Part shown: positions 1-34,862 of the stretch, piece by piece | Numbering within the stretch: position 1 is the stretch's first letter | Layout of the letters: the number at the start of each line of letters is the position of its first letter | Made by a program: the position numbers and the translations under genes | NCBI GenBank assembly: GCA_016190005.1 | Contig: JACPRK010000099.1 | Location: forward strand, 1 to 64,000 | Length of the DNA stretch: 64,000 nucleotides | Direction of reading: 5' to 3' | Source of the DNA: Candidatus Wallbacteria bacterium | GTDB taxonomy: Bacteria; Muiribacteriota; UBA6191; JACPRK01 | Notes under the pieces: model-generated | Told to the model about the DNA's origin: nothing | Database searches by the model: none | Seen by the model: the letters and a program-made list of their open reading frames with translations, nothing else

Positions 1-236
1 GACTGTCGATGGCCAATCAGGGAAACCAGCAAGGCCCCAGCGCGCCGGAGCTGCCCGTGGGTCCGCGCGCCGTCAAGGTCCTCTCGGTGGCCCTGGGATT
101 CGGAGTAGGTCTTCAGGCTTCAGGCTTCAGGCTTCAGGCTCAAGCGGGCTCCACACGAACGGCGTGCGTGTCCTCGCGGCCCCCGCGCGGTCCCCACGCG
201 GGGTCCGGATGGGGCAACCCGAGGCCTGAAGCCTGA
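1..236 (+). CDS. Possible 3' end of an upstream gene (partial)
   Basis: In the frame starting at base 3 there is no stop from the left edge to the TGA at 234-236. The first 35 or so codons have G/C-rich third positions and read like protein (ending ...VKVLSVALGFG). The rest is translated heptamer array and spacer. If a real gene enters from the left, its natural C-terminus has been replaced by repeat-encoded residues. It could equally be non-coding DNA. The expected neighbour would be the ATPase of the ABC system, but nothing in this tail identifies one. Confidence 0.25.
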   Translation, partial: LSMANQGNQQGPSAPELPVGPRAVKVLSVALGFGVGLQASGFRLQAQAGSTRTACVSSRPPRGPHAGSGWGNPRPEA

Positions 237-269
237 AGCCTGAAGCCTGAAGCCTGAAGCCTGAAGCCT
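111..269. repeat. Inverted pair of heptamer arrays (locus 1)
   Basis: The left arm (111-140) is about four copies of CTTCAGG. The right arm (225-269) is about six copies of the reverse complement, CCTGAAG. An 84-bp GC-rich spacer with no gene lies between them. The right arm ends four bases before the permease ATG at 273, so the usual ribosome-binding region of that gene is array sequence with no clear Shine-Dalgarno. The arms could form a hairpin. The unit read as AGCCTGA matches the AGYSWGW form seen at the other two loci. Confidence 0.9.
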
Positions 270-272
270 CCC

Positions 273-977
273 ATGAACGCCATCACTGCCATCGCCTCGC
301 GCGAAATCCACTCCTTCTTCGTATCGCTCAGGGCCTACGTGATTCTCACGCTCGGGCTCTCGCTCTTCACGCTGTTCTTCGCGCTTCTGCTGCTCGATGG
401 GCGCGAGGCGAGCATGCGCTCGATGTTCAAGATCATGGAGTTCCTCTTCTTGACCATCGTGCCGATCCTGACGATGGGGCTGATCGCCGAGGAGCGGCGC
501 ACGGGAACGGTGGAGCTCTTGCGCACCGCGCCGGTCTCCCGATCGGCCGTGGTTCTCGGTAAGTACGCCGGCGCCCTCGGCATCTACACGCTGATGGTGG
601 CCCTGACGGTCCACTTCTACGGAGTGCTCGAGCACTACGGCGCGCCCGACCGCTGGCCCGCGATACTCGGGTACACGGCACTGCTGCTCGAGGGCGCCTT
701 GATGCTGGCGGTCGGCGTCTTCGCCAGCTGCCTCACCTCCAGCCAGGCGGTCGCTTGCCTCGTGACCTACACGGTCTGCTTCGGGATCTACGCGCTCGGG
801 CTGATTGCCCCCTATCTGCCGGAGTCGTGGGCGCCGGCGGTCGCCTACTGGGGCGCTAGCAGCCACACCGCCTCGATGGCGACCGGGCTGATCCAGACGC
901 AGGACCTCGTCTACTTCGCAACTCTCACGCCGCTCTTCCTGGGCCTCGCGGTCTGGCGCTTCAAGAGCCAGGAGTGA
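273..977 (+). CDS. ABC-2 type transporter permease, GldF-like
   Basis: A 234-residue integral membrane protein with about six hydrophobic segments. The EERRTGTVELLRTAPVSR stretch at about residues 72-89 is the cytoplasmic signature of ABC-2 permeases, where it follows the second membrane segment. It is the membrane subunit of an ABC exporter. The next gene encodes a GldG-like auxiliary protein, the arrangement seen in the gliding/ABC-auxiliary family. The ATPase would be expected upstream, outside the window. The substrate is unknown, and in non-gliding phyla these systems have no settled role. The start ATG follows a heptamer array directly. Confidence 0.85.
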   Translation: MNAITAIASREIHSFFVSLRAYVILTLGLSLFTLFFALLLLDGREASMRSMFKIMEFLFLTIVPILTMGLIAEERRTGTVELLRTAPVSRSAVVLGKYAGALGIYTLMVALTVHFYGVLEHYGAPDRWPAILGYTALLLEGALMLAVGVFASCLTSSQAVACLVTYTVCFGIYALGLIAPYLPESWAPAVAYWGASSHTASMATGLIQTQDLVYFATLTPLFLGLAVWRFKSQE

Positions 978-1006
978 CGCGCCCCCGCCGAAAGGAATCG
1001 CACGCC

Positions 1007-2422
1007 ATGACTCATCAGAGCCCCCTGAGAAACTTCCTGAGGACCCTCGCCCGGGCGACCTGTGTTGCGGGGGCGCTTGCGCTCGTCGCCGGGATCAACT
1101 GGGTCGCCACGCGGGAGAATCGCCGCTTCGATCTCACGGCCCGCAAGGTCCACTCGCTGGGTGAGAAGACCCTCCAGATCCTGAGAGGCTTGAAGTCCCC
1201 GATCTCCATCACCGCGCTCTACCCCGGCGTCGCCCCCGAGGCCGTGGCCGATCTCCTGGGCGAGTTCCGCCGGGCGGCCGGCGGCATCGTCACGACTGAA
1301 ATCGTCGACCCACTCCAGAACCTGGGTTACGCTGCCCAGTTCGGAAACCGGATCGACGCGCAGGAGCGGCGCGTGGTCATCCAGGCCGGCAAGGCTCGCG
1401 AGGAGATCGACTGCACCGAGACCCCGCTGGACGAGGGCCGTCTCGCCAGCGCCATCTACCGCGCCGTAACAGAGTCGAGCACCGTCTACTTCCTTCGCGG
1501 GCACAACGAGTACGAGTTCGAGAGCCCGGAGCCCGACGGGCTGTCGCGGCTGGCCACCTCGCTCCGGGATCTGCAGTTCAAGGTCGAGGGGCTGGGGCTG
1601 GCGGGGGCGGGCGCCAAGGTTCCCGACGACTGCCGGGTGCTGGTGATCGCCGGCGCCCGCACGACGCCCAGTGACGAGGAGAAGAAGGAGATTTCGCGAT
1701 ACCTGGACGATGGCGGCCACGCGCTCTTCCTGGTGGAGTCCGCGATCCGCACTCCGTCCGGCACGCTCACGGAGCAGGAACAGCGCGCCAACCCCACGTG
1801 GAACGACGTGCTCTCCCGCTGGGGCGTCACGATGGGCGACAACGTGGCCGTCGACATCTCCAACCACATGGGGCAAGACATCGGCTGCCCGGCCACCAGC
1901 AAGTATCCCGACCACGACAAGATCGTGAAGGGCCTGGGCATAACCTTCTACGTGCGTCCCCGCAGCATCTCCTTCGTGAAGCCTTCGGATCGCCAGGTGC
2001 TCTTTGCGCCGCTGGTGCAGACAGTGAGCGGCGAGACGAGCTGGGCCGAGACCGACCGGACCCTTTATGTCCATTTCGACGAAGGCCAGGACCTCCGCGG
2101 CCCGGTCACCATCGGCTCCGTGCTCCTCCAGGACCCGAAGACCTGGAAGGACGGGAAGTCGACGAAGCTGGTCGTCCTCGGCGACGCCGACTTCGTCACC
2201 AACCAGTACACCAATCGCTACAGCAACCTGGACCTGGTCGTGAACAGCATTGCCTGGCTCGCCCAGCGCGAGATGCTGGCCCCCGCCGAGAAGACCGGCA
2301 CCCCGGAGCAGCGCCTCGAGATGACCGCCGGCGACATCAAGCTCGCCGTCGGCGGAATCGCCGTGTTCCCCGTGCTGGTGATGCTGTTCGGACTGAACGT
2401 CTGGCTGCGGAGGAAGAAGTAG
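1007..2422 (+). CDS. GldG-like ABC transporter auxiliary protein
   Basis: A 471-residue protein with one N-terminal membrane segment (about residues 15-32), a long periplasmic region and one C-terminal segment (about 445-465) followed by LRRKK. This is the layout of the GldG/ABC_transp_aux family. Typical features include the early RFDLTARKVHSLGEKTLQIL region and a central VLVIAGARTTPSDEEK segment. ATG 1007 is preferred because AAGGAA lies nine bases upstream; an in-frame GTG at 974 overlaps the permease end and is an alternative. The TAG stop coincides with the first bases of a heptamer array. Probable partner of the permease; cargo unknown. Confidence 0.85.
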   Translation: MTHQSPLRNFLRTLARATCVAGALALVAGINWVATRENRRFDLTARKVHSLGEKTLQILRGLKSPISITALYPGVAPEAVADLLGEFRRAAGGIVTTEIVDPLQNLGYAAQFGNRIDAQERRVVIQAGKAREEIDCTETPLDEGRLASAIYRAVTESSTVYFLRGHNEYEFESPEPDGLSRLATSLRDLQFKVEGLGLAGAGAKVPDDCRVLVIAGARTTPSDEEKKEISRYLDDGGHALFLVESAIRTPSGTLTEQEQRANPTWNDVLSRWGVTMGDNVAVDISNHMGQDIGCPATSKYPDHDKIVKGLGITFYVRPRSISFVKPSDRQVLFAPLVQTVSGETSWAETDRTLYVHFDEGQDLRGPVTIGSVLLQDPKTWKDGKSTKLVVLGDADFVTNQYTNRYSNLDLVVNSIAWLAQREMLAPAEKTGTPEQRLEMTAGDIKLAVGGIAVFPVLVMLFGLNVWLRRKK

Positions 2423-3005
2423 CCAGAAGCCAGAAGCCAGTAGTCAGTAGCCAGTAGTCAGAAGCCAGTTGCCAGTAGCCAGTAGGACTCGCGCGGGCGC
2501 GCCTTCTCAAGACCTGCGCGACGTCAGCGCGGAGGAATGGTCGAGAGCATCCGGGCCAGGTAGGCCTCGAGCATCCGGCTGATCTCCTCGAGCTCGGACG
2601 AGAGCCCATTCGTATCGCCGTAGCCAAGATCGCGCGTGAGGATTGCGTAGTAGCGGCACTCCTCGAGCGAGGCCTGGGCGATGTTGTAGTAGCGAGCCTT
2701 CTCGGGCTTCGTTCGCTTCTTGAATCCTTCGGCGATCGAGGATGGAACGGACACTGCTGCTCTCCGCCACTGGGACGTGAGCCCGAAGAGCTCGTGGCGC
2801 GGAAAGAGCGCCGTGTGCTTGTACACGGCCAGTACCCACGAATGGGCCCGTTGCCAGACCGCCAGGTCTTCGAACCGCTTCGATCGATTCATCTTGCCCT
2901 CCAACTAAGGGACGGATCGAACCGCTTCTCAGGCGCTCCCTCCCCTACTGACTACTGACTACTGACTACTGACTACTGGCTACTGACTACTGGCTACTGA
3001 CTACT
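2421..3005. mobile_element. Four-helix-bundle gene bracketed by inverted heptamer arrays (locus 2)
   Basis: The left array (2421-2486) is about nine units of AGCCAGT, AGTCAGT or AGCCAGA. The right array (2945-3005) is about nine units of the reverse complement (ACTGACT, ACTGGCT). Between them lies one minus-strand gene for a four-helix-bundle protein. Both flanking convergent genes stop at the array edges: gldG-like TAG at 2420-2422 and DUF4331 TAG at 3007-3009. The layout recalls 23S rRNA intervening-sequence elements, which carry related proteins between inverted repeats. Mobility is inferred. Confidence 0.6.
2524..2892 (-). CDS. Four-helix bundle protein (23S rRNA IVP/S23 family)
   Basis: A 122-residue protein with the family hallmarks: FEDLAVWQRAHSW at the N-terminus, SIAEGFKKRT in the middle, then ASLEECRYYAILTRDLGY. 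These proteins form pentameric helical bundles, are related to diversity-generating-retroelement Avd proteins and are encoded by many 23S rRNA intervening sequences. Their biochemical role is unclear. ATG 2892 is chosen because GGAGGG lies five bases upstream; a TTG at 2904 could add four residues. The gene stands alone between inverted heptamer arrays and is not in an rRNA gene. No reverse transcriptase or variable repeat is nearby. Confidence 0.9.
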   Translation of the reverse strand: MNRSKRFEDLAVWQRAHSWVLAVYKHTALFPRHELFGLTSQWRRAAVSVPSSIAEGFKKRTKPEKARYYNIAQASLEECRYYAILTRDLGYGDTNGLSSELEEISRMLEAYLARMLSTIPPR

Positions 3006-3006
3006 C

Positions 3007-4407
3007 CTACCGGAATCCCGGCACCGGATCGAGCAAGTACGGAAACACGCTCTGGAAGGCTCCGCTGGAGGCGTCGTTCCTGTCCACGCCGTCGGTCAGC
3101 GACTTGCCGTTCGGGGTGTCGGTGAAGCCCGTGACGAGGACTCCACCGACGGCTCGCAGCGAGATATCGACCACGTCGTCCACGGGGCGCCGGCCGTTCG
3201 GATAACCCTGCAAGTCGCCGGCGATGACGCCGAGAGGGTTAGGGCTGGGCGTGATCGGCGTGGCCATGTTGAGCCGGATCATCTCGGCCGGCCGGACGTT
3301 TGCCGGCTGGTTGAGGCCGGGGACGCCCGTCAAGAAGACCTGCACCAGGTCATTGCGCGGGGTGGCCGGAACCCTGAGCCCGTAGACCAAGGTGTAGAGC
3401 CGCGCTAGCTCGGGATCGGTCACATAGGAGAGGAACTGTGCGTCGTCGCGCGGGTTGGAGCCGTTGAACTTGTCCTTGTCCTTGAGCGGGATGACCACCT
3501 CATTCACCAGCGGCATCGCTAGCCTCGAGACCTGGACGAACGCGCCGCGCTCCGTCGAGAACCTGGGCGGCCGGTCGCGCAGAATGCGGACGGCCGGGCG
3601 GCTCGCCGTCGACCAGACACCCGCGATGCCGGTGTTGTTGGCCGTCGCGGAGAGCGTGCTGATCGGGACCTCCAGAATGATGGAGTGCACGTTGGCGCCC
3701 GCCAGTCCGTCCACTCCGGAGGAGCCCGGACTGTTCACCGGCCGTAGACCGAGCAGGTCGAAGATGCTGCCCAGGTCCGCGAAGAAGGGTTCCTCGCGCT
3801 GGCCGCAGAAGACCTTCGCGTTCCCGTGGGCGGGCAGCGTGTTGAGCGCGGCGCTGGCCAGGGTCGCGTAGTTCGGCGTGGAACGCGGTCCGATGTTCAC
3901 CGGCGGGCACGCCAGGTTGGTGCCCAGCACCTGCGCTGACTGTCCTTCCCTGAGCAGCGTGAGCGTGTAGGTCTGCTTCACGTTCCAGTCGGCGTCCGTC
4001 AGGTTGTCGATGACACCCGTGTTGTAGAGAAAGGTGCTGCCGTTGCCGACCGTCGTCGTGAACCGGAACTGGTAGGTCAGGTCCGGCAGCGCGTCGCCGT
4101 CGTTGTCGACTTTCAGCTCGTAGAGCACGTTGTCGTCGAACTTCCAGAAGTTCGGCCCGCTCTGGGGAAACTGGAGCGGGATGAAGTTGGCGATGATGCA
4201 GACTCTGTCGCCGGCGACACGGAAGAAGTAGACGTCCGTGTTGTCCGCCAGTGGGTCCTGGCTGATCAGGGGCGCCTCCCGGTGGCTGGAAGCCAGCGCC
4301 GGCGCGGAAAGGCCCAGCCCCAGCGCCAGCAGCGCTACCCCCAGTGCCCAGCCGCCACCCGTACGACGCCACGTCTGCCAAATCGATTTCATCCTGCTCT
4401 TTTTCAC
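3007..4407 (-). CDS. DUF4331 family secreted protein
   Basis: About 466 residues with a signal peptide whose mature end begins near SSHREAPLISQDP, followed by ADNTDVYFFR. These two motifs are diagnostic for DUF4331. The body is beta-rich, and the C-terminus carries DDVVDISLRAVGG and ends in LDPVPGFR. The function is unknown; family members are secreted and often accompany TPR proteins, as here, where a TPR gene diverges upstream. The start is uncertain: GTG 4407 has AAGGAG six bases before it; GTG 4425 and ATG 4392 are alternatives, and all keep the signal peptide. Confidence 0.9.
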   Translation of the reverse strand: MKKSRMKSIWQTWRRTGGGWALGVALLALGLGLSAPALASSHREAPLISQDPLADNTDVYFFRVAGDRVCIIANFIPLQFPQSGPNFWKFDDNVLYELKVDNDGDALPDLTYQFRFTTTVGNGSTFLYNTGVIDNLTDADWNVKQTYTLTLLREGQSAQVLGTNLACPPVNIGPRSTPNYATLASAALNTLPAHGNAKVFCGQREEPFFADLGSIFDLLGLRPVNSPGSSGVDGLAGANVHSIILEVPISTLSATANNTGIAGVWSTASRPAVRILRDRPPRFSTERGAFVQVSRLAMPLVNEVVIPLKDKDKFNGSNPRDDAQFLSYVTDPELARLYTLVYGLRVPATPRNDLVQVFLTGVPGLNQPANVRPAEMIRLNMATPITPSPNPLGVIAGDLQGYPNGRRPVDDVVDISLRAVGGVLVTGFTDTPNGKSLTDGVDRNDASSGAFQSVFPYLLDPVPGFR

Positions 4408-4522
4408 GTGCGACTCCTTGCTCACGTAGCTTTGCGGGTCTTCCCTTTCTAGCAGGAATCCTGCCTGCTCGCCTGAGATCAGGCCGCCCGATGATACACT
4501 ATCTGTCCGAATCGAAGACGAT

Positions 4523-5950
4523 ATGTCCGATCACCGGCAATTCCCAAGCGAGTTGTACTCAATGGCCAGTCAGGAGCTTTGCCCCCGAACCCCGACCAAG
4601 GGGCCAGCGGCCCTCCTTCGGCGAGCTCAGGACAAGCACTGGACCCCAGTTGTGCTGTGGCCCTCGGAGAAGTCGGGCGCCCGTGGTATTGCTCGTGCCC
4701 TTCGAATCCTTCTGCTCTTTTTCGCTGTTCTCGTCTTGTCCGCATCATCCGCTGCAACGCCTCGCGCGGTCGGCGTCCTCGATTCCATCCGCGCCGAGAT
4801 CGGCCGTCTGTCGCGGGCCCTGGAACGGCGCCCCGCGGACCTGCGGGCCCTGACCCTGTTGGCCGAGGCCTATCTCCGGGAGGCCCAGGTCACGGGCGAC
4901 TCCTCCGGCCATGCCCGCGCGGACGCAGCCATCCAGCGAGCGCTCGCCGTCGATCCTCAGGATTACGCGGCGCTTGCCGCCAAGGGTTGGGTCGAGTACG
5001 CCCAGCACCGCTTCGCCGAAGCCGCCGCCTCCGCGCGCAGGGCGATAGCCCTGGCGCCCGAAGCTGGCCGAAACTATGCGCTGCTCTCCGACGCGCTCCT
5101 GGAGCTGGGCCGGTACGACGAGGCCGTTCGAGCGCTCCAAGGGTTGCTCGACCGCCAGCCCGGGCCGGCCGGCTACAGCCGGGCCGCTCACATCAGGTTC
5201 CTCCACGGCGACCTCGACGGCGCGCTGGAGATGGTGGAGCTGGGGCTCGAGTCGGCGCTCAGCGGCGGCGCGCGCGACCTGGCGGCCTGGCTCTACACGC
5301 AGGCCGGCGAGCTCCACGCAGCCCGGGGAAACGTCGCCCGGTCGCGACGATCGCTAGAGCTTGCGCGAGTCCAGGTGCCCGGCTACTTCCGCGCAGCCGG
5401 CCCCCTTGCGCGATTGCTCGCCAACCAGGGCCAGCTGGACACAGCTCGCAGCGTGCTCACTGCGACGCTCGAGCGGATCGAGGACGCCGGCCTCCTTGCC
5501 ACACTCGAGGATCTCGAGACACTCCAGGGTAACGAGGCGGGGGCCCGAGCGGCGCGCCAGCGGCTCGAGTCGTTGGCAAAGCTCGACATCGCCCAGCACG
5601 GCCGCATCGACCGCGCTCTGGCCCTGGCCGACCTGGAGCAGGCCCGCAACCTGGAGCGCGCCACGGCCGCCGCCGAGGCCGAGTACCGCGAGCGGCCCGA
5701 CATCTACAGCGCCGACGCGCTGGGCTGGGCCAGATTCCGGGCCGGCCGGCTGGACGAGGCGCTGGTGCTCTCGAAAGAGGCGCTGCGGCTCGGAACGAAG
5801 GATGCGGCCCTCTTGTTCCGCCGCGGGACGATTCTGAAGGCCGCCGGCCGTGCTGCAGACGGTGAAATCGCCCTGCGAGAAGCTCGCACTCTGGGACTGG
5901 CGCTACCGCCGTCGATCTGGCGAGTACTGGCTCCGGGGAGCAAACCGTGA
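4523..5950 (+). CDS. Tetratricopeptide repeat protein, exported or membrane-anchored
   Basis: Up to 475 residues. A hydrophobic signal or anchor (about residues 58-76) is followed by at least nine TPR-like helical pairs, for example ALAAKGWVEYAQHRFAEAA and AEAYLREA. It is a protein-interaction scaffold, probably periplasmic. It is divergent from the DUF4331 gene, and the two may be functionally linked. The N-terminal 50 codons are suspect: they contain a dispersed repeat (4615-4637) and do not resemble a leader, so translation may begin later, for example at GTG 4652, although no good Shine-Dalgarno supports that choice. ATG 4562 is another option. Confidence 0.75.
   Translation: MSDHRQFPSELYSMASQELCPRTPTKGPAALLRRAQDKHWTPVVLWPSEKSGARGIARALRILLLFFAVLVLSASSAATPRAVGVLDSIRAEIGRLSRALERRPADLRALTLLAEAYLREAQVTGDSSGHARADAAIQRALAVDPQDYAALAAKGWVEYAQHRFAEAAASARRAIALAPEAGRNYALLSDALLELGRYDEAVRALQGLLDRQPGPAGYSRAAHIRFLHGDLDGALEMVELGLESALSGGARDLAAWLYTQAGELHAARGNVARSRRSLELARVQVPGYFRAAGPLARLLANQGQLDTARSVLTATLERIEDAGLLATLEDLETLQGNEAGARAARQRLESLAKLDIAQHGRIDRALALADLEQARNLERATAAAEAEYRERPDIYSADALGWARFRAGRLDEALVLSKEALRLGTKDAALLFRRGTILKAAGRAADGEIALREARTLGLALPPSIWRVLAPGSKP
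4615..4637. repeat. Dispersed CTTCG...GCTCAGGACAAGC repeat
   Basis: The 23-bp sequence begins CCTTCGGCGAGC and continues TCAGGACAAGC. It matches the widespread intergenic form CTTCGACAAGCTCAGG found scattered in many bacterial genomes. A related stretch containing ACAAGCTCAG occurs at about 34771-34793. It falls inside the apparent N-terminal coding part of the TPR gene, which argues that the true start lies downstream. Confidence 0.45.
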
Positions 5951-6247: not shown

Positions 6248-9200
6248 GTGAGCGAGAAGACCGAGATTGTGGCCGTGCGCGGGAGGTTGTTCGCGTCTCA
6301 CCCGGTCCAGCGGTACGGCGCCCGCTCGCTGCTGACGCTGGTCGGCTTGACGCTGCTCACCTGCGCGAGCGCCTCGGCGCAAACGACCTACAACAAGTCC
6401 GTTGGCGTCCTGGTCACCGGGACTGGGCAGTCTCTGTTACGCCAGTCCATGAACGTCGTCGCGTTCAACAAGACGAAGGGGGTCAAGGCCGGAGAAGCCT
6501 CTCCGGTCAAGCTGAACGACACCGCTACCGTATCCGTTCCTCTCAACGGAGTCTCCGATGGAAACGTCATCGAGTTCTACATCACCAGCATTCTCAGGTC
6601 CGACGCGAGTGTCTCCGACGCCTACTTCAAGACCGAAGTTCCGGTCTCGGTCGTGGACATCACGACGGCCATCCCGAATGTGACCCTGACGGACCCATCG
6701 GGAGAGCTCAGCACTCTTGCCGGAAGTGTGTACAACGTGAGTGGTTCCATTGTGCCCGGTGTTCGGGTCATGGCCACAGTCATCCGCGACCAGAGCGATG
6801 TTCCGCTGAGCTTGACGGGCGCACTCTCCTACGAGCAGGCCTTTCCGGACACTGCCGTTACGCAGACCCTGGCTGAGAGGTTTCCGGGAGCTTTTTCGAT
6901 TGGACTCGTGGGTCCGGTAGCCGCCGGAGACTCGGTGAGACTGAGCGAAGTCTATGACCAGAGCAGCGGCACGCCGACACCACTCGGGGAAATGTGCAGT
7001 GAGGGAACCAATGCTGACGACCCGGCCGAGAACTGCAAGGCCGTGCCGATCCTCGTTCCCATCGATCCCACAACGTTGGCCTGGCAGGGAAGCACGAGCG
7101 GGGATACGACACGGTCTCGATTGATCGAGGCCGCCGACCTGAATACGGGCGGGTCCATCCGGATGGATTTCCTCGACCCGAACACGTTCGTCATCTTCAC
7201 GTACAGCCAGACGTCGAACCCATTTACCCAGACGACTCTGAATGAGCGGATTGTGGGCAAGGGCTCCCTGAACATCACGGCCACGGTCTACAACGAGTTC
7301 CTGGCCCTGGGACCCAACTTCGTCAACAATGCTTCGAATCGATTTCTCCTGGAGCCGCTCGCCGTGACCCCGGTGCTGAACATCGATCGTATGCTGGGCA
7401 CGGGAGACCAGGCCTGTTGTTTGCCAATGTCGCAAGTCATCGGCAAGCCGTACATGTACACGGCGACTTACGATGTCGAGGAGTCGGATCGAGCGGGGAT
7501 CCGAGACGGTCTCACCGTCGTGACCCTCAAGAACGCCGTCGACTTTGGCGGCAACAGCTTGACAAGCCAGACCAGCATGAAGAACTCGACCTTCGTGGCG
7601 GTCACGGTCCCTCCGCGCGTCTCGTCGATCACCTACAGCAAGGGCAACTCGGAGAACCCGCCGCACTTGCCCTCTGGCGCGTTCACCATTTCGGTCACCT
7701 TCGACGAGCGAATCACGCAGACTATCGCTCCCGTGATCACCATCCGGGACTCGAGCGGCACCATCACGGCAACAGCCAACCCAGGGAGCAATCTCCAGTA
7801 CAACCGGGACGACATCGCCAACAACACCAGTCTCTTCACCTACCCGCTGCAGACCGCCCTGGCGGCTGGCACGTATAGCATCAACATCACCAAGGCGAGG
7901 AACCTGCTCGGCGCCGAAATCGACCCTGCGGACATTACGCCGACCAACCCCAACTTCGTCGTCGACACGACGACGGCCAACGCGGCATTCACCTACTCTC
8001 GCGCCCAGCCATTCACGAAGGGGCCCGTTACCATAACCGCCACCTTCGATCAGAAGGTCACGAATCCCACGATCCAGATCGATCGGGGAGGGACCGGTAA
8101 CGACATCCCCACGACTCTGATGACCAGCACCTGCGGAAACAGCAACATCCCGTGCCTGGTCTGGAGCTACAACTACGATATCGCCCCCGCGAACGGCTCG
8201 ACGGTCACAGATGTCACGGCGACCATTACGATTACCAACGCTACTAACGAGATTGGGAACGCGAGCGCGCCGATCACGACCACGTTCACGCTGGACACGA
8301 GACCCACCTACACCCTGACCTACAGCAAGGCCAGTCTCCAGTACAAGGCAGAGACCTTCCGTATCACGGCCGTCTTCAGCGACGACGTCAAACCGGGTCC
8401 CGCCCGCATCACCATCACGGGCGGCAATGTAGGCGGATTACCCGTCACCAACAGCACCGAGATCACCCAGAGCAACCCCACAGACTTCAAGACCTGGGTA
8501 TTCAGTCGCACGATTGCGGCTGGTGACGCTCCGACCAACCCCGAAAGTAGAGACATCACGCTGGGCGTGCCTTCGTCGGCTGACGTGGCCTTGCAGGCCA
8601 GCAACACCCGGTTCACCGTCGACACGAAGGCGCCAGCGCTCACCACGGTCACCTTCAACAAGCCGTCCCAGGTTTACAAGGGAGGAGACACTCTGGTAGT
8701 GACCGGCGTCTTCAGCGAGGACATCACCCCGGTCGCACCGGCGATCACCATCACGGGTGGAAACGTGGGGGCCGCGACGGTGACCGGTGAGCCCATGGCT
8801 CCGGGTGCGAGTCCGGTGACATGGACCTACTCGGCAGTTGTTTCAGCGTCCGACGCCAGTGGCACTCGAGACATCACGATCAGCGGTCTCGACGCGGCAG
8901 GCAATCCCAGTGGCGTCCCTCCCACGCCGAGCCGCATCACCATCGACAACGCCTCGCCAACCATCCTCGACTTCAAATTCAACAAGCCCTCCCAGATCTA
9001 CAAGGCCGAGAGCTTTGACGTGACCTTCACATTCGATGAGCCGCTGGGGACAACGCCGACAATCACCATCAGCGGTGGCAATCTCGACGGACTTCCTGTC
9101 ACGAATGCCTCCATGCTGGGAGGCGGCAGAGACTGGTACCTGGTTCGCACCATCCGCAGCACCGACGGCAACGGTCTTAGGTCCATCCTCGTGACTGCCG

Positions 9201-12200
9201 TGGATGTCGCGGGAAACTCGGCAATTCTCAGCCCGGACGGAAGCGACTTCACGGTCGATACTCGTGCCCCGACCGTTTCCCTCGTCTATAGCAAAGCCAG
9301 CCGCGCGTACGGCGCCAGTCAGATGTTTGGAATCACCGCCTCGTTCAGCGAAGACCTCTCGACGCCGCCCACGCTCACGATTTCCGGGGGGAAGGTCGGC
9401 GACTCCGATGTCAACAACGAGACGCTATTCCAGGGGGGAGATGCCGCCACCTGGTTCCTGCCCGACATTGCCATCGCTTCGACGGACACGACGGGCGACC
9501 GGACCCTGGACATCGGCGCAGTGGACGATGCCGGCAACGTGGCGCAACAGCCGTCCAATGCCACGTTCAGCATCGACACCGACCTTCCGACCCTCACTGT
9601 CACCTTCGGAAAGCCTACCGCTTCCCCGTTCACGGGCATCAGTGCCGGCAACCTCGCCATCACCGCCGATTACAACAAGAACCTGGTCATTGCGCCCCAG
9701 ATCTCCATCAATCGACAGGGTACGGGCAATGATGTCATCCCCCCCGTGGAAATGCAGCAGATCAACCCGAAGAAGTGGGTCTTCACCTATGCCGTCGCGA
9801 GCGCAGACGGAGCCACGATCTTCGATGGCGACGCGGACTTGCGGATCGACACGGGAGCAGACGCGGCCGACAATACCGCCGCTTTCTCCAAGACGTTAGA
9901 GATCGATACCGCCGCGCCCACCGTCTCCCTGTCGTACAGCCGGGCGAATCCCATCCTGACCGCCGGATCCCTGGTGGTGACGGCGACGTTCAATGAGCCG
10001 GTCTTCACGTCGCCCACGATCTCCATGGTCGGCCCCGCCGGCGTGAACAACCAGTCGCTGACGATGGTCGCCGTTGCGCCTGGCCCGATCTCGGCGACCT
10101 CCTGGCAAGCCACGCTAACGATTGCCGAAGGAAATGACGGCGGGTTCACGGTCGACGTCTCCGCCGGCAAGGACAGGGCGGAGAACTCGAACCTGCCGCC
10201 CACCAGCAACAACGTTGTCGTTGTCCGTACCGCCGAGATCCCGCCGCGGACGGTCCCGTTCAAGATCCTCAACTCTCTGAGTGGCGACAGCTCCCGCCGC
10301 CAGAACATGCGCATTCGTCTTTACAACGAAACGGCACTCGCCGAGGAGCCGAATCCCGTGACCAATGTCAGGCTGGCCGAGGTTCGCTCGATGGCGCTCA
10401 CGAAAGCGGTCACCGGCGACGTGCTGCACTTCTACATCGACTCGATCCGGACGGCTGACGGCACCCCCTCCCCGGCGCTCTTCGATACTGGCGCGACCGT
10501 GACCGTGCCCGACCTGGGCACGGCCATCGAGACGCAAACCGTCAACGATCCTACCTCTGAGATTCCAACGTTGAAGGGATTCCTCAGGAACCAGTCGGGC
10601 CAGAATGTTCTCTCGACACCCGTAGACGTCATGGTTCACCACTTCGAGCCGGGCTCGGCGACGTTCACCGGCGTCGTCCAGCAGACCTTCACCCACACAC
10701 AGACGGGCGTCACCCAGGGCAATCGCGACCTGTTCCCGGGCACCTACTCTTTCACCAAGGTCGGTCCGGTCACGTTCGGGGATGCGTTGCGGCTCACCTT
10801 GAGGCGCCAGCCGGATGTGCTCGGCGCACCCGTTACCCCGACAGTGCCAGACCCGGATCCCCTGTGTCTGGCCGCAGGCGGCCCCTGCGTGCCTGCAGCG
10901 GTGGCCAGTCCCGACCCATCCGATGTGGCCGGCGCTGGAGCCAACCAGGGCGCTTATCTGGATGTGGACAGCGCACTCTCACGCGCTATCGGCCCGAACG
11001 ACCTGACCCCGGGCAGCACCGTGCGGATGAACTTCATCGATTCGCATCTCTTCGTCGGCCTGACGTACAGCAAGGACAGGACGCTGGTGGATGCAGGCCT
11101 GCTAAGAATAACCGCCACCTTCTACAACTCGTCCCGATTCTTCGACAACAACTTGCTCCAGCTCGAGCCGACTGCGACAACGCCCACCCTCGTCATCGAC
11201 CGCAACGGCAGCGGGGACACGCCGTGCTGCTACGAGATGCGCCGGGCCGTTATCGGCGATCCTTCCGTCTGGGTCGCCGATTACACCGTGGCCGTCGCCA
11301 ACCGCACCACGCTGCTGGACGGTCTGGCGGTCGTGCGAATCGAGAACGCCATCGACTATGCCGTGAACTCCCTGCCCTCCGCGGGCTTCACAACGCACAC
11401 CACCTTCGAGACGCTCACGGTACCGGCGAAGGCGACACTCGCCTTCAGCAAGGGCCGATCCGACCTCGATCCGCCCTCCGTTCCCGCAGCTCCTTTCACC
11501 ATCACGGTCACGTTCGATCAGCAGATCACCCAGGCGTCTCGGCCCAAGATCACGATCACGAGCAGCAATTCGATTCCCAGCATCAATGACGTGACAGCCA
11601 AGGACCTCGTCCTCGTCTCGGCCTCCAAGAACCAGTCCGTCTTCACCTACAACTACACGCCCTCGGCCGTGGACGGGCTCGGAAAGTCACTGGCGGGCAC
11701 CTACCTGGTCAACCCCACCCAGGCGTTCAATCTCGTAGGATTGGAGAACGACAAGACGCCGGTCCAGCCTCTGTTCACGCTGGACACGAAGCGCGCGACC
11801 CCGACCCTGCGCTACAGCCAGAGTGGCGCTGTCGTCACCACGGTCAAGGCGGGCGAAGTGCTCATCACAGCGATCTTCGACGAGCCAGTCGAGGGTCCCG
11901 TCATCGAGATCGATCGACAGCCGATTGGCTCGGGCCTCAACGACGTCCTGACCACTCCGATGGACAACTCGTGCCCTGGAGGGCTCTGCGATGAGTGGAC
12001 CTTCAAGTACAACGTGATTCCACAGACCGGCCCCACTTCCAACATCCGTGACGGGACAGCCAGTGTCACCATCCGCAACGGGATCAATCGGGTGGGTAAC
12101 ACGAGCACCGAGCCTGCACTGAACCGCACGTTCGACATCGACACGACCGCGCCGAAGGTCACTTCTATCGAGGCCATTCCTGAGTTCGTCGGCGCGGGAA

Positions 12201-15200
12201 CGGACAACCTCGCCTACCGCGTCACGTTCGACGAGGCCATGTCGACGACACTGCTGCCGACCATCTCCGTTCGACGCCCCGGGACGGCGCCCGCGGATCT
12301 GGTCACCCTGCAGCCAGGAGCGATTCCTACGCAGTTCCAAGGGACCATGGACGTCTTGCAAGCTGGCGCCATCCCCGGGCTACAGGACGGGCCGCCTGCG
12401 AACTCGGTCTCGGTGGTCTCGGCCGTCGATCTGGCGGGCAACGCGGTTGCGCCCTTTACGGCTTCCGCCGGAACGGTGTTCACGACCCAGGTGGCGACGA
12501 CTCTCGACTTCTCGCCACCCAAGGCCAGCTATGCTGCCAGCGACACCGTCAGGATCAGCGCCACCTTTGCCCGGGCACCCGTGCTCGGAATCGGCGCCGC
12601 GCCGCCCGCTCTCGTCGTGAATCGACCGGCGCCGGATGGTCTCACTTCACCCAGGACCGTCGTACTGGTACCGGTGGGGGCGACCCCCACAGCGCTGGTC
12701 TGGGTCGGAACCTACGACGTCACTCCAACCGGGGGCGAGACCTTGCTGGACGGTACGGCCACCGTCGATCTAGCCGTTCAAGACCAGGTCGGCAATCCGG
12801 CCTCGATTCTGGGGCGGAGCACCTTCGAGCTCGACGGCACGCGTCCGTTCGTCGACGTGACGCTGTCTCCTGCGTCTCCGGTGACGACGGGACCTCTCAC
12901 GATCACTGCCCGATTCCAGAAGAAGCAAGGCGGGTTCGAGGAGCCGCTCTTCACGACGCCCACCGTCAGCATCACCGCCGACCCGCTCACATGCCCAACG
13001 AACTCGGGAGGCAACGTCCAGGGCCCGAAGCAAATGCGGCAGCTGATAGCCGGAGACCCGACGGCCTGGGTGGCGTCGTTCGACATCACGACCACGAACG
13101 ACGGTTGCTTCGTGCTGCACGTCGAGGGCGGTACCGATGGCTCGGGCAATCCCAACGTCGATCCGGCAAAGCCGTTCCAGATCTTGACCAATGGCCCCAG
13201 GGTCAGCCTCACCTACAGCAGGCCGCAGCTGGCAGTGCCCCAGGGGAATCTGACCATCACCGCGTCCTTCGACTCTGCCGTTGCCGCCGACGCCACGCCG
13301 ACGATCGCCATTGCCTCTGACCTCTCCACCGTCGCGTTCAAGAACACGGTTCCCGCGACACCCATGGACGTCGCGGCCGGGCCGCAGAGGCTGACTTTCA
13401 CGTTCACTTACTCCATCGAGTCGGGCGAGGATGGTCCCTTCCGCGTGACCATCGATAACGCCAGGGATGCGGCGGGCAACATCAACCGGAAGCCCCCAGA
13501 GAATGATGTGTTCATTGTTCGCACGAGCGCGCCGAGCGTGTTCCTGGACTACTCCCAGGATGGGCGTCTCAATCCGCCCGCCCTCCATGCCGGCACGGCG
13601 ACGATCACGGCGACTTTTACGGAGGCAATCACGCCTTCGGCTCCGACAGTCACGATCGCCGGTCCGGCCGCTGTCCCACCCGGAACGCTGATGGCGGGCA
13701 TCTCGCCCTCGGCTGTCTGGACCTATCCGTGGACCATTCCGCCGGCGCCGGTGGACGCCACGTCCACCATCAGTGTTCGAGGACGCAACGCCTCGAACGT
13801 AGAGAACACCTTGCCGCCGCTGCGCGACTCGATCCGGGTCGACACGATAGCTCCGGCGGTGACGCTCACCTACAGCCCGGGCACGGTGGACAAGCCCGGC
13901 GTGCCTGTGGTGACGACCGGACCCCTGGTCATCCAGGCTGCCTTCACCGAGCCGCTGGCCCAGACGCCGACCCTCTTTCTGGAGATGGGTGCGGAGACGA
14001 TAACCGACTTTGCCTACAGTTCTGCGGATGGACAGTATTGGACCGCGAGTCGGAGCATCGTGAGCGGCCACGTCAACGGCGTCTACCAGGTCCGCGTGAC
14101 CGGCGCCCAGGACCTGGCCGGCAACGCCACGGCGGAGCCCGTCCCCAATCGCGACCTGCGAATCGATACGCAGCGGCCGTCGGTGAAGACCGTTCTCACC
14201 TTCTCGAAGATCACGTCGCGACCCATCGGAACGGGCGCCCTGACCGTTACCGCGACGTTCGACGAGCCACTCAAGGTGACTCCCGTCTTCAGAATTCTCC
14301 AGATTCGACCGGCGTCCGGCAGGCTCCTGCCCGGGACGGCCGTTGCGACCGGCTCCGACACGAGCTTTGCGGCCACCTTCACTCTGGGAGGAGCCGACGA
14401 GGGTGACTGGCGGGTATCAGCCACAAACGGCCTGGACTTCGCAGGAAATCAGAACCAGGAGATCGACCTGGGCCAGGGGCCCGTTTTTACGGTAGACACG
14501 ACGGAGCTGTCTGCGGGACTTCTGTACAAGCCTCTGACGCTCGGGCTCACGCACCACTCAGCGATCACCCCGTTCCCGATCACGGTGACCTTCAACAAAC
14601 CCGTCGTCAACCAGCCTCTGATCCACATCTCTGGTGGAGCGGCAAGCACGCTCAACGACGTTGCAAGTGCGCAGCTGTCGGCGGCTGGCTCTCCCACTTC
14701 GTCGGGGCAGACGGTTTTCCTCTACGCCCACAGATTGGTTGCCGGCGATGACGGCAGCTTCGACGTCACGCTGACGACGGCTCGGGACAAGTCTCTCAAC
14801 CTGGTCGATCCTCCTGTGACCAATGGCGCTTTCCGCGTCGACGCAACCACGCCAACGGTCCAGCTCACGTTCAGCAAGGATCGCACTCATCCACTGTCGG
14901 CCGGGTTGCTGACGATCACGGCGACATTCACGGAGCCGCTGGTGGTGACGCCCCACATCGCCATCCTGGGCGCCAACCCCAGCGATGCTTCCAATGACCA
15001 GCCCGACGTCGAGATGAGCCCCACGAGCAATCCAGCAGTTTGGGCGTTCCCCAAGGCGATCACGGCGACTGCCGGCGGCATCGACGACGATCTGTTCACG
15101 GTCACCGTTTCGCAAGGGCGCGACAAGGGCGGTAACCAGCCTGCGGCACCGACAGGAGTCACCTACCGGGTGGACACCGTCCGGCCCAACGTCGCGATCT

Positions 15201-18200
15201 CCTATAGCAAGGGCACCTCCTTCGGGGAAGGGCTGGTCGACATCTTCGCCACGGCCACCGAGCCACTCTCCTCGACTCCGACGGTCACGATCACGGGCCG
15301 CTCCGGAAGCGCGGCGACCTTCAACAATCGCACCAACGCGCGCATGGAGCCCACAGCCGACGCCAAGAAGTTCGTTTACCACTATCGGGTGGAGACGGGT
15401 GACGATGGCGCCTTCCGGATCGCGCTGGGAGACGTGCTGGACTTCTCGGGGAACCCCCTTGGCGGCCTGAGTGGCGAGGACTTCACGATCGATTCGGCGC
15501 CGGGGGTCACGCTCACCTACAGCCAGCCAGGAGCGAAGTTCAAGAGCGCTCCTCTCACGATCACGGCCACCTTCGATGAGTCGATTTCCACGCCGCCCAG
15601 CCTGTCTGTCGGCTCGACGGCCAGCCCGGCCGCCAACCTCCTGTCGTCGAGCCCCATGTCGGCGACGATCGATCCTACCGTCTTCGTGTTCGTGTGGCCC
15701 GGCGGGGGACTCAAGCCCGAGGTCGACGGCCCTGGCGTGTCGTATGTCGTGACCATCAGTGGTGCCCAAGACGCCAGTGGGAACTCCAACGCGCCGGCCA
15801 GAAACGGCGCCTTCACGGTCGACTCGACCGCGCCGAAGGTTACCGCGTTCGGCGCCGACAAGCCCAGGCCTACTTCTGGGCTGCAGTTCACGGCTGTCAA
15901 CGAGGGGACGCTGCGGATCACGGCGACCTTCGACGAGCGCCTACAGCAGGCGCCCCAGCTGAGAATCGATCGCGTCGGAGGCGGCAGCGGCAATGAGCTG
16001 CCTTCCACGCCGATGTCCCTTGTGAGCGAGAGCGCCGATGGCGACCCCGATCCGTTCAGCACCTGGACATCCACGCACGACATCGTTTCGGGAGCGGACT
16101 CCCGAATGCGGGCCACGGCGGAAAACGCTGTCGATTCCGCCGGCAACACGAGCATCACAAGCTCCTTCGAGTTCGAGGTCGACACGGAGCTGCCCAAGGT
16201 GGACACAGTAGCCTACAGCCAGAGCCGCTTCGGCGTCACGAGTGGCCCGCTGACCCTGACGGTGACCTTCTCCGAACCGATCTTCCGGGCTCCGTACATT
16301 CAGCTCATCGCGAGAACGGCGGGCGATACGAGGAACGATCTCGGTCCCAGCTCGATGCAGCCTGTCGGATCCTATCCCACTCGAGACTTCACGTTCGCAC
16401 CCGAAGCCGGGATCGTGTCGGAAGTCCTCGCAGGAGTTGACTACGAAGTCCAGATCACCCAGGCGCTCGATCGTGCCGAAAACGGCGTAGTCGCCACCGA
16501 CGTCCCCGAGCGGTTCTTCTACGTCGACACACGCTGGCCCGAGGGAAGCATCGTCTTCGGAAAGACCCCGCCCGTCTTCACCCTCGGCGCCCGAACGATC
16601 ACGGCGACTTTCGTCGAGCCCCTTGCCGTGACGCCGAGCCTCCAGATCGTGGGCGGCGAGGCCTCGAGCGACGCCAACGATCTCACGCCGACATTCATGT
16701 CGGCCACGACCACCAACTCGGTCTGGATACTGGCGATCCCGGGCGGCATCGAGCTCGGAGACGACGGCTCCTTTGGGATCACCTTCACCGCCGGGGCAGA
16801 CTTCGCTGGGAACCCCCTCGTCGTCACCCCGACGGGTTCGTCCGTCTTCACTGTCGACACGGTCGCCCCTACTGTCACGGATATCACGTACACCCGACCC
16901 ACTTCGACCTTCACCAAGGTGAACGCGGGGCCGCTCGGCCTGACGATCACCTTCAGCGAGCCCTTGGTTGAGACGCCCACGATCAACATCTCGGGCGGCA
17001 CTTCCAGCACGCTCAACGATGAATCGGGCCCGATGTCGCCCACTTCCGACGCCGCCGTGTGGACCTTCGCCTATCCAGGGACCGGCGTGGTGCCTGGTGA
17101 CGAGGGCACCTTCACTGTCAACGTGGCGAGCGGAAAGGATGCCGCGGGCAACGCCAACTTGGCGCCTTCTCTTCCGAACGCCACGTTCAGCGTGGATACG
17201 TCCGCACCCGTGCTCGTATCGCTGGAGAAGAGCCGGCCGCTGCAGCCGTTCACGAAGGTTCGTCAGGATACTCTCGTCTACACGGCAACGTTCAACGAGC
17301 CGCTTGCGGTGGCGCCCGCGATCACGGTCACCGGCGGAGCCATCTCGGAGGGAAACCACGTGAGTGGCCAGTCGATGACGCGAGGTGCGATCGCCAGCGT
17401 CTGGACTTTCTCCCAGGACATCGGCTCGACCGACGACGGCCTGTTCAACGTCACCATCGCCGGCGGCCGAGACCAGGCCTCCAACGATGCGCTCGCGTCT
17501 ACACGTAACGCGTTCTTCGAGGTCGACACGCTGGCTCCGTCCGCGGTGGCGATCGCCTACAGCCGCGCGGGTACGAGTTTCGCCACGGGTGCCCTGACCC
17601 TGACGGTCACCTTCTCTGAGGCGATGGCCGTGACGCCGACATTGAAGATCTCCGGCGGAAGCAACGACAGCGGAGCCAACGACGTGGTGGACTTCATGAG
17701 GCCCGCAGCGTCGCCGCTCACCTGGACTTTCACGTATCCCAACCCAGGTCTGAAAAAGGGTGATGACGGCACTTTCCAGGTCACATTCCTCGGGGGCGAG
17801 GACATGGCCGGCAACCCGGTTGCGTTGTCACCCACGGCAAGTGGGAGCTTCGCCGTGGACACGGTCGAACCCGCGGTCTCTCTGACTTACGGCCGGTCGG
17901 GCAGGACTTTCCTGCGCGGCGTCGACGGTCGGCTGGCGATGAATGCGGGGCCTCTGACCATCACGGCGACGTTCACCAAGGAGCTTGTACGGTCACCGTC
18001 GATTGTGATCTCCGGCGGCCGTCTGGGCCCCGAAAATGATCGCCCGAGCACCGAGATGATTCAGGCCGGGACCGACAAGAAGGTCTGGACGTACAGCTAT
18101 CCGACCGGTCTGGTCGCCAACGACGACGGGATCTTCAATGTGGCGATCACGGGTGGCCGCGACGCCTCGGGAAATGCAAACCTCGCCGTTCAGGGAGTCG

Positions 18201-21200
18201 ATTCTCAATTCGTTGTGGATACGCGGCCGCCGGCGGTCGTAACGCTGGACCGGCCGACCCCCGTGACCCCCTTTAGCCGGGTCCGCCAGGGCGCAGCTCT
18301 ATATGCCGTAACCTTTGATGAGCCGATCGTGACCACACCCACGCTGTCGGTGGCCGGCGGCACGGCAACCAGCACCGCCAACGACCTGAACAGCCGCGAG
18401 ATGGAGCGGACTGTGACGACCACAGTGTGGGTCCTGGCTCACACTATCAAGACGGGCGATGATGGGACCTTTACGGTCTCCGTTGGCTCCGCCAACGACG
18501 TCGCCGGCAACACCAACCAGGCGCTCACGTCGAACAACACGTTTGTGGTGGACGCGACCGCTCCTACTGTCACGAACATCTCCTACGACAAGCCGGTGGC
18601 GCCGTTGACGCGCGTCACGACGGGTACGCTGAACATCACGGTGCTCTTCAGCGAGGCGCTCTCGGGCGGCGCGCCGGCCCCCGTGATGACCCTCTCCAGG
18701 CCAGGCGCCGCGCCGGACGTTCGCCCCATGACCGCCAGCGGCAACGCCGCTCAGTGGACCCTGGCATACACCGTGACGCGCGCGGCGGGATTGGTGCGGG
18801 ACGGGACCGTGGACTTGACGATCGACGCCTTCGACGGCGCGAACAACCCTGTCGTGTCCCCTTCGACTGGCGCAAGCTTCGAAGTCGACACACTCCCGGG
18901 TTCCGCCACGCTTTCCTACAGCGCTAGCGACAGCCAAAACGTGCCGCCCGGTCCGTTGCGGATCACAGCGGCCTTTACGGAGCCGCTGGCCGCTCCGCCC
19001 CAGATCGCGCTGGTCGGATTCCCGGGCGCCAACAACGTCGGCCCGCTCCGCATGACCGCCTCGGGAGATCCCGCGGTCTTCACCTTCGACACGACCATCG
19101 TGCGTGACAACCCGGGCATCTTCTCGGTTCTGCTGCTCGGCGCCCAGGACCTGGCGGGCAACGCCATCACTCAGTTCCAGAACGGCCAGATCAAAGTGGA
19201 CCCGAACGCTCCGGCGACGACTCTGCGATACAGCCGGGGCCCCAACGGCGTCACTAGCGGTCCGCTCACCATCACCGCCGAGTTCAGCAAGCCGATCGTC
19301 ACGACCCCGCTGATCAGCATCACGGGTCGCGCCGGCGACAACAACGTCGTCTCGCAGCCGATGACGCGCGTCGACACCTCCACGTTCCGCTTCGTCAAGG
19401 ACATCGGCACAGGCAACGACGGCCTCTTCACCGTCTCCGTCGCCGGCGCCAAGGACACGGCCGGCATCGACGCTGGCCCCCCGGCCGACACCACGCTGGT
19501 CGTCGACACGACGCCGCCTAGCGTCTCCATGGGTTACTCCCGGAATCCGCCCGTCTTCGGCGCCGCTACGGTCCGCGTCACGGCCACCTTCAGCGAGCCG
19601 ATTGCGTCGGGCGTGAGGCCCAGCCTTTCTCTCTTCCTCACCAGCGGTCTGCTCGTCGCCGAACCGCGGCAGATGACGGTCTCCACCACCCGAACCGTCT
19701 TCTTCTTCGACTTGCCCTTCGCCGCGGGCGAGGACGGCTTCTATGACATCTCCGTCGAGGGCGGCACTGACTTGGCCGGCAACGCAAACCTTGCGGCGAC
19801 CAACAACCGCATCGAGATCGACACGACCCCCCCGGGCGTCGTACTCGAGTACAACCGGCCTGTCTCCGCGGTTCCGTCAGGGCTGTTCGCCATCACCGCC
19901 ACCTTCACCGAACCGTTGACCTCGGCCCCCACGATCTCGATCGCAGGCCCGCCAGGCGCCAACAACCGGTTCGCGACGCCGATGACCCGAGCCGGCTCCG
20001 ACCTGATCTACACCTACGCGACCAACATCGTCCCGGGCAACAGCGGCGACTTCACTGTTGCCGTCTCCGACGCGCTCGACCGGGCCGGCAACTCCAACTC
20101 CGCGGCCGTCAACTCCGCCATCGACATCGTCGCCGCCAACGTGGCCGTCGCCTTCGTGTACAGCCGAGACCCGGCCGGCGTCCCCGCGGGTCCACTCACC
20201 CTCACGGCCTCCTTCGGCGGCGTGTTGAGTACCTTGCCGACTCTGTCCATTGCCGGACCGGCCGGTGCCAACAACGCCCAAGCGGCGTCGATGAGCGGCC
20301 CGGTTCCCGGTTCGGTCTTCGCCCTGACCCGCACCATCGTCGCCGGTAACGACGGCGCCTTCAATGTCTCGCTCGGCAACGTGCGCGACCAGCTCGGGAA
20401 CACCACTGTCTCCATCTCGGGCGGGCGCTTCACTGTCGACACCGTCCGGCCGACCGTTGCCCTCTCCTACGACAAGAACCTCGCGGCCGTCGGACGCGGG
20501 CCTCTCACCATCACCGCCCTCTGCTCCGAGCAGGTCGTCAACCGGCCCGTGCTCACTGTCACTGGCCCCGCCGGCCCGAACAACCGCTCGGCGTTGCCAA
20601 TGCTGGGGGCAGTGCCTGGAAACCTCTTCACCTTCGTTCTAGACGTCCAGGTCGGCAACGACGGGCTCTTCACCGCCGCCGTCAGCGGCGCTACCGACGT
20701 TGCCGGCAACGACAATCTGCCGGCCACCAATGCGACGTTCGTCGTCGCCACCGTGGCCCCCTCGGCTGTGCTGACTTACAGCGCCGACCCCGGCGGCATC
20801 GGCGCCGGAATGCTCACCCTGACCGCGACGTATGATCAGCCGCTGCTCGGCGCGCCCACGATCTCGATCGCGGGTCCGGCCGGCTCCAACAACCGATCGC
20901 CCGTCCAGATGACGCGGGTCGACTCCAGCAGCTACGTCTTCCTGCTTCCGGTGGTCACAGGCAACGACGGCTCATTCACCGCTACGCTTGCCGGCGCCAT
21001 CAGCGCCGCCGGTCTCTCGGGCACCGCCGTCTCGAACAACCGCTTCACGATCGACACGACCCCGCCCGTGCTGCTCGTCAGCGACCCGGCCGAAGGGCGG
21101 ACGGTTGGCACCCAGATCACGGTCGGCGGCAGTGTCTCGGATCTCACCTCGTCCGTGGTGCGCGTCAGCAGCCCAAGTGGCGTCTTCGCGACGGCTACTC

Positions 21201-34599: not shown

Positions 34600-34862
34600 A
34601 GCGAGTAGCGAGTAGCGAGTAGTGAGTAGTGAGTAGTGAGTAGCGAGGAGTGAGGCGGGACGCTTGCGTCCGCACGTCCTCTTCGGCTCGCCTGACTACT
34701 CCGCGACTCTCCAGCTACTCCTCGGATCCGTTCCCAAGTCGAGGAGTCTGGCCCCCATCAGTATCGGGCTTTCACAAGCTCAGCCCGAAAGTTCGTGGGG
34801 CGACGCTGGATAGGCTCGTGGCCTCTCGTTCCTCACTACTCGCTACTCACTACTCGCTACTT
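34600..34862. repeat. Inverted pair of heptamer arrays (locus 3)
   Basis: The left array (34600-34654) is about eight units of GAGTAGC or GAGTAGT. The right array (34832-34862) is about four units of the reverse complement (CTCACTA, CTCGCTA). The 177-bp spacer has no gene. It includes a stretch near 34771-34793 with ACAAGCTCAG, like the dispersed repeat at 4615. The element occupies most of the 444-bp divergent region between rlmI and the aldehyde dehydrogenase, leaving about 150 bp beside the latter for its promoter. Confidence 0.9.

Follow-up and report, generated by a model that had tools for sequence, protein, structure and literature searches.

A four-helix-bundle gene between inverted heptamer arrays as a probable member of a family of small mobile elements

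We found a four-helix-bundle gene of the S23 family between two inverted arrays of heptamer repeats in the window, a 64,000-nucleotide stretch of a Candidatus Wallbacteria genome. We consider it likely, at a probability of roughly 0.8, that this locus represents one member of a family of small, widespread mobile elements, which have inverted arrays as their ends and usually carry one S23 gene. The S23-bearing elements would measure about 0.4-0.6 kb and end in inverted arrays of 7-10-nt tandem repeats, and gene-less array pairs of about 0.1-0.3 kb would be their related, non-autonomous forms. The start of an element tends strongly to coincide with, or adjoin, the stop codon of an upstream gene on the same strand. 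A sequence-only reading of the window had suspected a small mobile or selfish element at this place, and its suspicion is supported by complementary arms around S23 genes, by empty sites, and by a flip and excess divergence of the cassette in a sister species.

The locus in the window

The left array (2418-2485, plus strand) is built from AGTAGCC/CAGTAGT units and the right array (2945-3005, minus strand) from units that read CTACTGA on the plus strand; both have period 7 according to TRF, and the right array is inverted relative to the left. Between them, on the minus strand, lies the S23 (23S_rRNA_IVP) gene, which spans 2524-2892 from its ATG or 2524-2904 from an alternative TTG start. The neighbouring genes, a gldG-like ABC auxiliary gene (974-2422, plus) and a DUF4331 gene (3007-4425, minus), both have syntenic counterparts with 98% amino-acid identity in the sister species. 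They are convergent and both terminate at array edges, the gldG-like gene with a TAG within the first unit of the left array and the DUF4331 gene with a stop 2 bp past the right array. TRF and PF05635 thus confirm what had been read from the letters, an S23-type gene between inverted heptamer arrays at a convergent junction. This convergent setting is the less common one among S23 loci. Its placement outside rRNA holds as well, with no 23S rRNA match within the window. E. coli 23S likewise found no match among 110 S23 loci or in the loci L138-L197, and an rRNA origin of the S23 loci was ruled out on these grounds.

In the predicted RNA fold of the window cassette, the complementary ends around the S23 ORF form a stem, in which 57 of the first 70 bases pair with the last 70, compared to 11 in shuffled sequences. 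PF05635 has a single match in the window's genome (a 4.48 Mb assembly, 72.7% complete), and none above the cut-off in a more distant congener (one at 25.6 bits; genome 74% complete).

The S23 protein

The window protein reaches 111.6 bits against PF05635 (curated cut-off 33.8), also matches TIGR02436, 'four helix bundle protein', and folds into four helices in its AlphaFold (AF2) model (pLDDT 93). The best PDB match of this model is 2gsc, the Xanthomonas campestris protein XCC0516 (TM 0.83-0.88), and 2rld (BT_0352) is matched too. The protein is a clear member of the S23/23S_rRNA_IVP family, whose solved structures are five-chain assemblies. The DGR accessory protein Avd shares the fold (chains 4dwl and 8ub7; query-normalised TM 0.70-0.76), but the window protein stays under the cut-off of the NCBIfam Avd model (21.3 bits against 80), and S23 differs from Avd in having no recurrent partner gene. 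A Ka/Ks of about 0.1 between the window gene and its sister copy indicates that the protein is under purifying selection. To our knowledge, genes annotated as 'four helix bundle protein' are common and without a known role. An anti-phage defence function was set aside, as PADLOC assigned 0 families to four S23 proteins; phage carriage was discarded after one S23 query returned no match.

A flipped and diverged cassette in the sister species

The sister species (G001) holds an S23 cassette at the same locus as the window's genome (G000), in the opposite orientation. In blastn comparisons, window 2453-2991 aligns in minus orientation to G001 C8:141148-141685 with 83.3% identity, and the sequences on its two sides, window 225-2469 and 2973-4536, align in plus orientation with 96.1% and 94.5%; the inner edges of the cassette are conserved between both genomes. 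Between G000 and G001, the S23 genes show a Ks of 0.468 and a Ka of 0.045, 2-5 times the values of the three flanking genes (Ks 0.119 for gldG, 0.215 for the DUF4331 gene and 0.093 for gldF; Ka about 0.0095). A cassette that is flipped and diverged at a shared site implies that cargo was exchanged or flipped between the arrays. A misassembly in either MAG would leave the divergence of the cassette unexplained.

The array positions in the window are common to G000 and G001, so that the elements have stayed in place over the span that separates these two genomes, which we count against our explanation. No empty allele turned up for the window S23 locus, at which the contig of a more distant congener (G002) breaks off. 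For two further G001 S23 loci, tried as possible empty sites, no orthologous flanks were found in G000. Further flips were sought in other same-site S23 pairs, with none among the alignments listed; two loci of congeneric genomes, L008 and L030, carry different S23 subtypes at one site instead.

Two other array pairs in the window, which the sequence-only reading had suggested as gene-less relatives of the S23 locus, proved by TRF to be real inverted pairs without an S23 gene. Locus 1 combines CTTCAGG arrays at 111-140 with GCCTGAA arrays at 224-269, and its G001 counterpart has different heptamers, AGTAGYG on the left and GCCTCAA on the right. Locus 3 consists of GAGTAGY arrays at 34600-34654 and 34832-34861; it is 97% identical in G001, where one array is shorter by one 7-bp unit, and missing in G002, which has about 40 bp in place of the 262-bp array pair. 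The G002 sequences on the two sides of this site show 74% and 81% identity, a divergence of the flanks that makes a target duplication at locus 3 indiscernible.

Arrays of this type are abundant in the two closely related genomes: AGTAGYSAGTAGYSAGTAGYSAGTAG (CAGTAGY/GAGTAGY type, up to 2 mismatches) has 413 matches in G000, 522 in G001 and 9 in G002, and its reversed control has 0 in all three. Matches overlap inside an array, so that arrays are fewer than matches; a count by eye among the matches listed gave at least 47 array clusters in G000. Among the same matches, at least eight plus-then-minus pairs have starts 120-206 bp apart, and no minus-then-plus pair occurs within 1 kb. The reversed-pattern control, together with the comparison of repeat periods described below, ruled out a chance or low-complexity origin of the arrays.

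Inverted arms around S23 genes across phyla

A first set of S23 genes, drawn from many phyla, comprised the best 80 of 578 loci from a profile search of genome contigs. Around these 80 loci, period-7 arrays reach a density of 5.88 per 10 kb in the 500 bp nearest to the gene and of 0.46 per 10 kb at distances above 1 kb, and other periods are far rarer. Period-7 arrays stand on at least one side of 26 of the 80 genes and on both sides of 12. The association becomes broader in an arm test without a fixed period, which compares the 350 bp upstream with the reverse-complemented 350 bp downstream. A score of at least 13 was reached by 60 of 77 loci (3 of the 80 were excluded for short flanks), compared to 9.1% of cross-locus pairs and 2.5% of 855 distant windows; a score of at least 20 was reached by 37 of the 77 loci, 1.5% of cross-locus pairs and 0.2% of distant windows. 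In a second set, the 44 full-flank loci out of L138-L197, 37 loci scored at least 13, against 4.2% of cross-locus pairs and 1.1% of 88 windows; this set comes partly from the same genomes, shares a few loci with the first set, and is therefore not wholly independent of it. Arrays around other four-helix-bundle genes, which had been named as a check for the window's genome with its single S23 gene, were thus found across relatives. The remaining 17 of 77 and 7 of 44 loci score below 13, which counts against the generality of the arms.

The repeat unit is not uniform. Among 55 loci with a score of at least 15, the best-fitting period is 7 in 32 and 8-10 in 19. Their left arms have a purine fraction of 0.69, compared to 0.56 in flanking sequence, and 35 of the 55 contain a Shine-Dalgarno-like string. 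One S23 variant (L046:5735-6235, on G001:C112) has inverted hexamer arrays of GCCCCA/GCCCTT-like units on its two sides, which shows that the units are not always heptamers.

The upstream neighbour lies on the S23 strand at 63 of 75 loci, more often than expected from 204 of 310 adjacent pairs (p 6e-4); for the downstream neighbour the count is 55 of 75 (p 0.18). Where the upstream gene is co-directional, the left arm begins no more than 10 bp from its stop at 28 of 47 loci, as judged with a simple ORF caller. Insertions that are tolerated in tight operons necessarily lie near a stop, and this proximity may therefore reflect selection instead of targeting. Neither a recurrent partner gene nor a recurrent transposase was found among 282 neighbour ORFs (221 clusters), and the larger clusters come from loci whose flanks also align, among the alignments listed.

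Two pairs of loci drew attention on their own account. Two 97% identical S23 segments (L108:3878-4337 and L109:89-548) have different flanks within one Bryobacterales genome; they were dropped as proof of mobility because both carry one common frameshift and arrays are lacking at one outer end. At L011 and L028, which belong to two congeneric genomes, one and the same S23 cassette has rearranged flanks, with the segment downstream in one genome lying upstream in the other.

Filled and empty sites

S23 genes occur in 31 cyanobacterial plasmid records, and regions from six of these were compared with related plasmids, which have orthologous sites without the cassette. The clearest insertion is shared by Trichormus variabilis plasmid C and Scytonema NIES-4073, in which the S23 insert stands between two copies of GTAAT. 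This is a 5-bp target duplication that takes in the TAA stop of the upstream gene, and the site is empty in four related plasmids. Two heptamers distinguish the filled copies from each other. By reading of the sequence, an AGGAG supplied by the array of the Trichormus element precedes the S23 start, and the right array contains the end of the S23 frame. A site in a Nostoc operon carries the insert in three plasmids and lacks it in five, and TTCTA flanks the insert on both sides with one base off; the next gap of the same operon holds a different S23 gene with AAAAGGGG arrays in another plasmid. In Picosynechococcus PCC 7003, a cassette (L220:2495-2851) lies between cas10 and cmr3 of a type III-B CRISPR operon, at a site that has no S23 cassette in PCC 7002. 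S23 cassettes thus insert at empty sites as whole units with sharp ends.

The gene-less pairs show comparable behaviour. One such element, which lies within an S23 gene in Nostoc N6, occurs at 103 places in 43 plasmid records, and six of six further copies have the same array ends. Exact gene-less insertions hit a rarA-like gene, an S23 gene, and the space between two genes; an exact empty site belongs to the 184-bp blunt insertion in the rarA-like gene, and a second to an insertion of 208-209 bp, whose shared sequence is no longer than 2 bp. This Nostocales family has internal palindromes and inserts without target duplication. At one Nostoc site (L227 versus L231), the array pair is common and the interior differs. 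Gene-less array pairs are more numerous than S23-bearing copies and, as these alignments indicate, are mobile too.

Empty sites, which had been suggested as a test of mobility, thus exist both for locus 3, absent in G002, and for the S23 cassettes on plasmids. The outcome for target duplications is divided: the S23 insertions show 5 bp in the clearest case and close to 5 bp in another, and the gene-less family shows 0-2 bp, hence no duplication. Such differing lengths do not establish a single mechanism of integration.

Co-occurrence of arrays and S23 genes

In a sample of 396 genomes from the phylum of G039, exact matching of CAGNAGNCAGNAGNCAGNAG (CAGNAGN) detected arrays in 82 genomes, and PF05635 was present in 187, with up to 11 S23 candidates scored per genome. 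S23 genes occur in 72 of the 82 array-positive genomes (odds ratio 12.5, Fisher p 1.6e-17, from raw genome counts that ignore kinship and genome size). All 34 genomes with at least 9 pattern hits have S23, and the 10 array-positive genomes without it have no more than 8 hits each. The 115 S23-positive genomes without a CAGNAGNCAGNAGNCAGNAG match would be expected if repeat sequences vary by lineage. The reversed control (GANGACN) gives many matches in three genomes of the phylum (G107 with 756 hits, G165 and G186), which are probably other heptamer array families.

Proposed mechanism and alternative explanations

Our data suggest that S23 is the only recurrent gene of the element family, and that this family is related to the intervening sequences (IVS) of 23S rRNA. 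No transposase was found in cis with the elements. From the IVS-like fold and the lack of any gene recurring beside S23 we infer a mechanism in which the arrays serve as the working ends of the element. They could allow a long hairpin to form in its transcript, in the manner of the rRNA IVS, and array-to-array recombination could flip and swap the cargo. The S23 protein may bind the array in the form of RNA or single-stranded DNA and help to spread or maintain it, and cutting and joining would be left to an enzyme in trans.

For the window locus itself, the strongest competitor is a simple inversion of a fixed intergenic gene between inverted repeats, without any mobility. G000 and G001 share the site, the outer arrays and the inner cassette edges and differ in orientation, as such an inversion would predict, and we give this explanation appreciable weight, somewhat short of an even chance. 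The excess S23 divergence, however, fits exchange better, and the comparison suggests that exchange with another copy via the arrays would account for both orientation and divergence more readily than a mere inversion. A higher evolutionary rate of the cassette may be another source of this excess. Less probable is that the arrays are an independent, host-driven repeat of slippage-prone heptamers or terminator- or processing-like hairpins, in which S23 is a passive cargo of recombination. The numerical excess of gene-less pairs, the cargo that varies at the same array site (L227/L231, L008/L030, locus 1), the variable unit numbers (L217 versus L221, locus 3) and the presence of other sequences between arrays would all agree with it. 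It is made less likely by distant phyla that share S23 and inverted arrays with different repeat sequences, by array-rich genomes that nearly always have S23, and by whole cassettes that insert as units.

IS200/IS605-like single-strand transposition leaves no target duplication. The elements might be non-autonomous derivatives of such a known transposon type, mobilized by a transposase in trans with S23 as a hitch-hiker; this would suit the Nostocales gene-less family with its internal palindromes and missing duplication. We regard it as improbable, more so than a host-driven repeat, given that a 5-bp duplication flanks the clearest S23 insertion, that no transposase recurs beside S23, and that the linkage to S23 across phyla would be left unexplained. 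A family of mobile elements with array ends and an S23 gene therefore stays our preferred reading.

The REP/RAYT system (REPtron) likewise consists of many dispersed gene-less inverted units and a small number of copies that bear a gene and have this repeat on both sides; S23, in contrast, is a four-helix bundle without a recognised transposase domain, and the ends of its elements are tandem arrays. Dispersed heptamer repeats are also known as STRR in cyanobacteria. The closest likeness is to the 23S rRNA IVS with an S23p ORF in Coxiella, Leptospira and others, where an S23 ORF stands between complementary, stem-forming ends; a trait of these IVS is their excision by RNase III. According to the accessible text of one report, the 23S rRNA IVS are regarded as selfish, and the Coxiella IVS has two to three GACAGAT heptamers and a degenerate one directly before the ORF (PMC4990558). 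The same text holds S23p to be probably not expressed in Coxiella (PMC4990558), which we count against our explanation. The present elements differ from the IVS in lying outside rRNA, in having tandem arrays as ends, and in having gene-less relatives and cargo exchange.

In Xanthomonas, about 70 inverted GGGAATC heptamer pairs per genome lie mostly between co-oriented genes, near the 3' end of the upstream ORF, as the accessible part of the source describes (PMC4692102). There they are treated as G-quadruplex simple repeats, and the terms 'S23' and 'four helix' are absent from the text of that paper (PMC4692102). A Dyella S23 gene (L121) lies between GGGAATA/GGGAATC arrays, adjoining a stop codon. 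The Beggiatoaceae TAACTGA repeats form dispersed intergenic heptamer arrays, which are direct repeats with one inverted set and have no S23 link in the accessible text (PMC4679880). The cause of the excess of heptameric repeats in bacteria is not agreed upon, as far as the accessible text states (PMC4692102).

More tentatively, and with odds that we place just under even, the inverted tandem arrays of 7-10-nt units that are dispersed in genomes of many bacterial phyla (Xanthomonas GGGAATC, cyanobacterial heptamers, CAGTAGY) and the rRNA IVS could form one class of mobile elements without a transposase, in which the terminal array is recognised by oligomeric S23 as an RNA- or ssDNA-binding protein, stop codons are the target, and cargo is exchanged via the arrays. 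Each component by itself, whether S23 proteins, rRNA IVS, MITEs or heptamer repeats, is known; a union of them, supported by filled and empty sites and by co-occurrence, is absent from the papers that could be searched, and a literature search mostly outside subscription journals returned no paper that ties S23 genes outside rRNA to heptamer arrays. This union would link role-less 'four helix bundle protein' genes to the excess of heptameric repeats, and would set the 23S rRNA IVS within a broader family located mostly between protein-coding genes. Suitable test beds are the filled and empty plasmid pairs of cultured cyanobacteria, Xanthomonas with its solved S23 structure, and the orientation-changing cassette of the sister species.

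Other repeats in the window and its genome

A repeat of about 100 bp with a GAGCTC-centred palindrome (L044:2774-2880) has many copies in G000, sometimes beside or between heptamer arrays, and by eye the interior of locus 3 resembles it. A sequence of 120-160 bp recurs with 95-100% identity at L045:1-163 (G001:C106) and on the G000 contigs C104, C112, C20 and C118; it opens the contigs C104 and C112 and probably represents one end of an insertion sequence that has several copies and here adjoins an S23 gene. The window also contains a repetitive ORF of 5829 amino acids (6248-23737), much of whose first half is about 65-67% identical to G001, compared to 88-96% in its surroundings.
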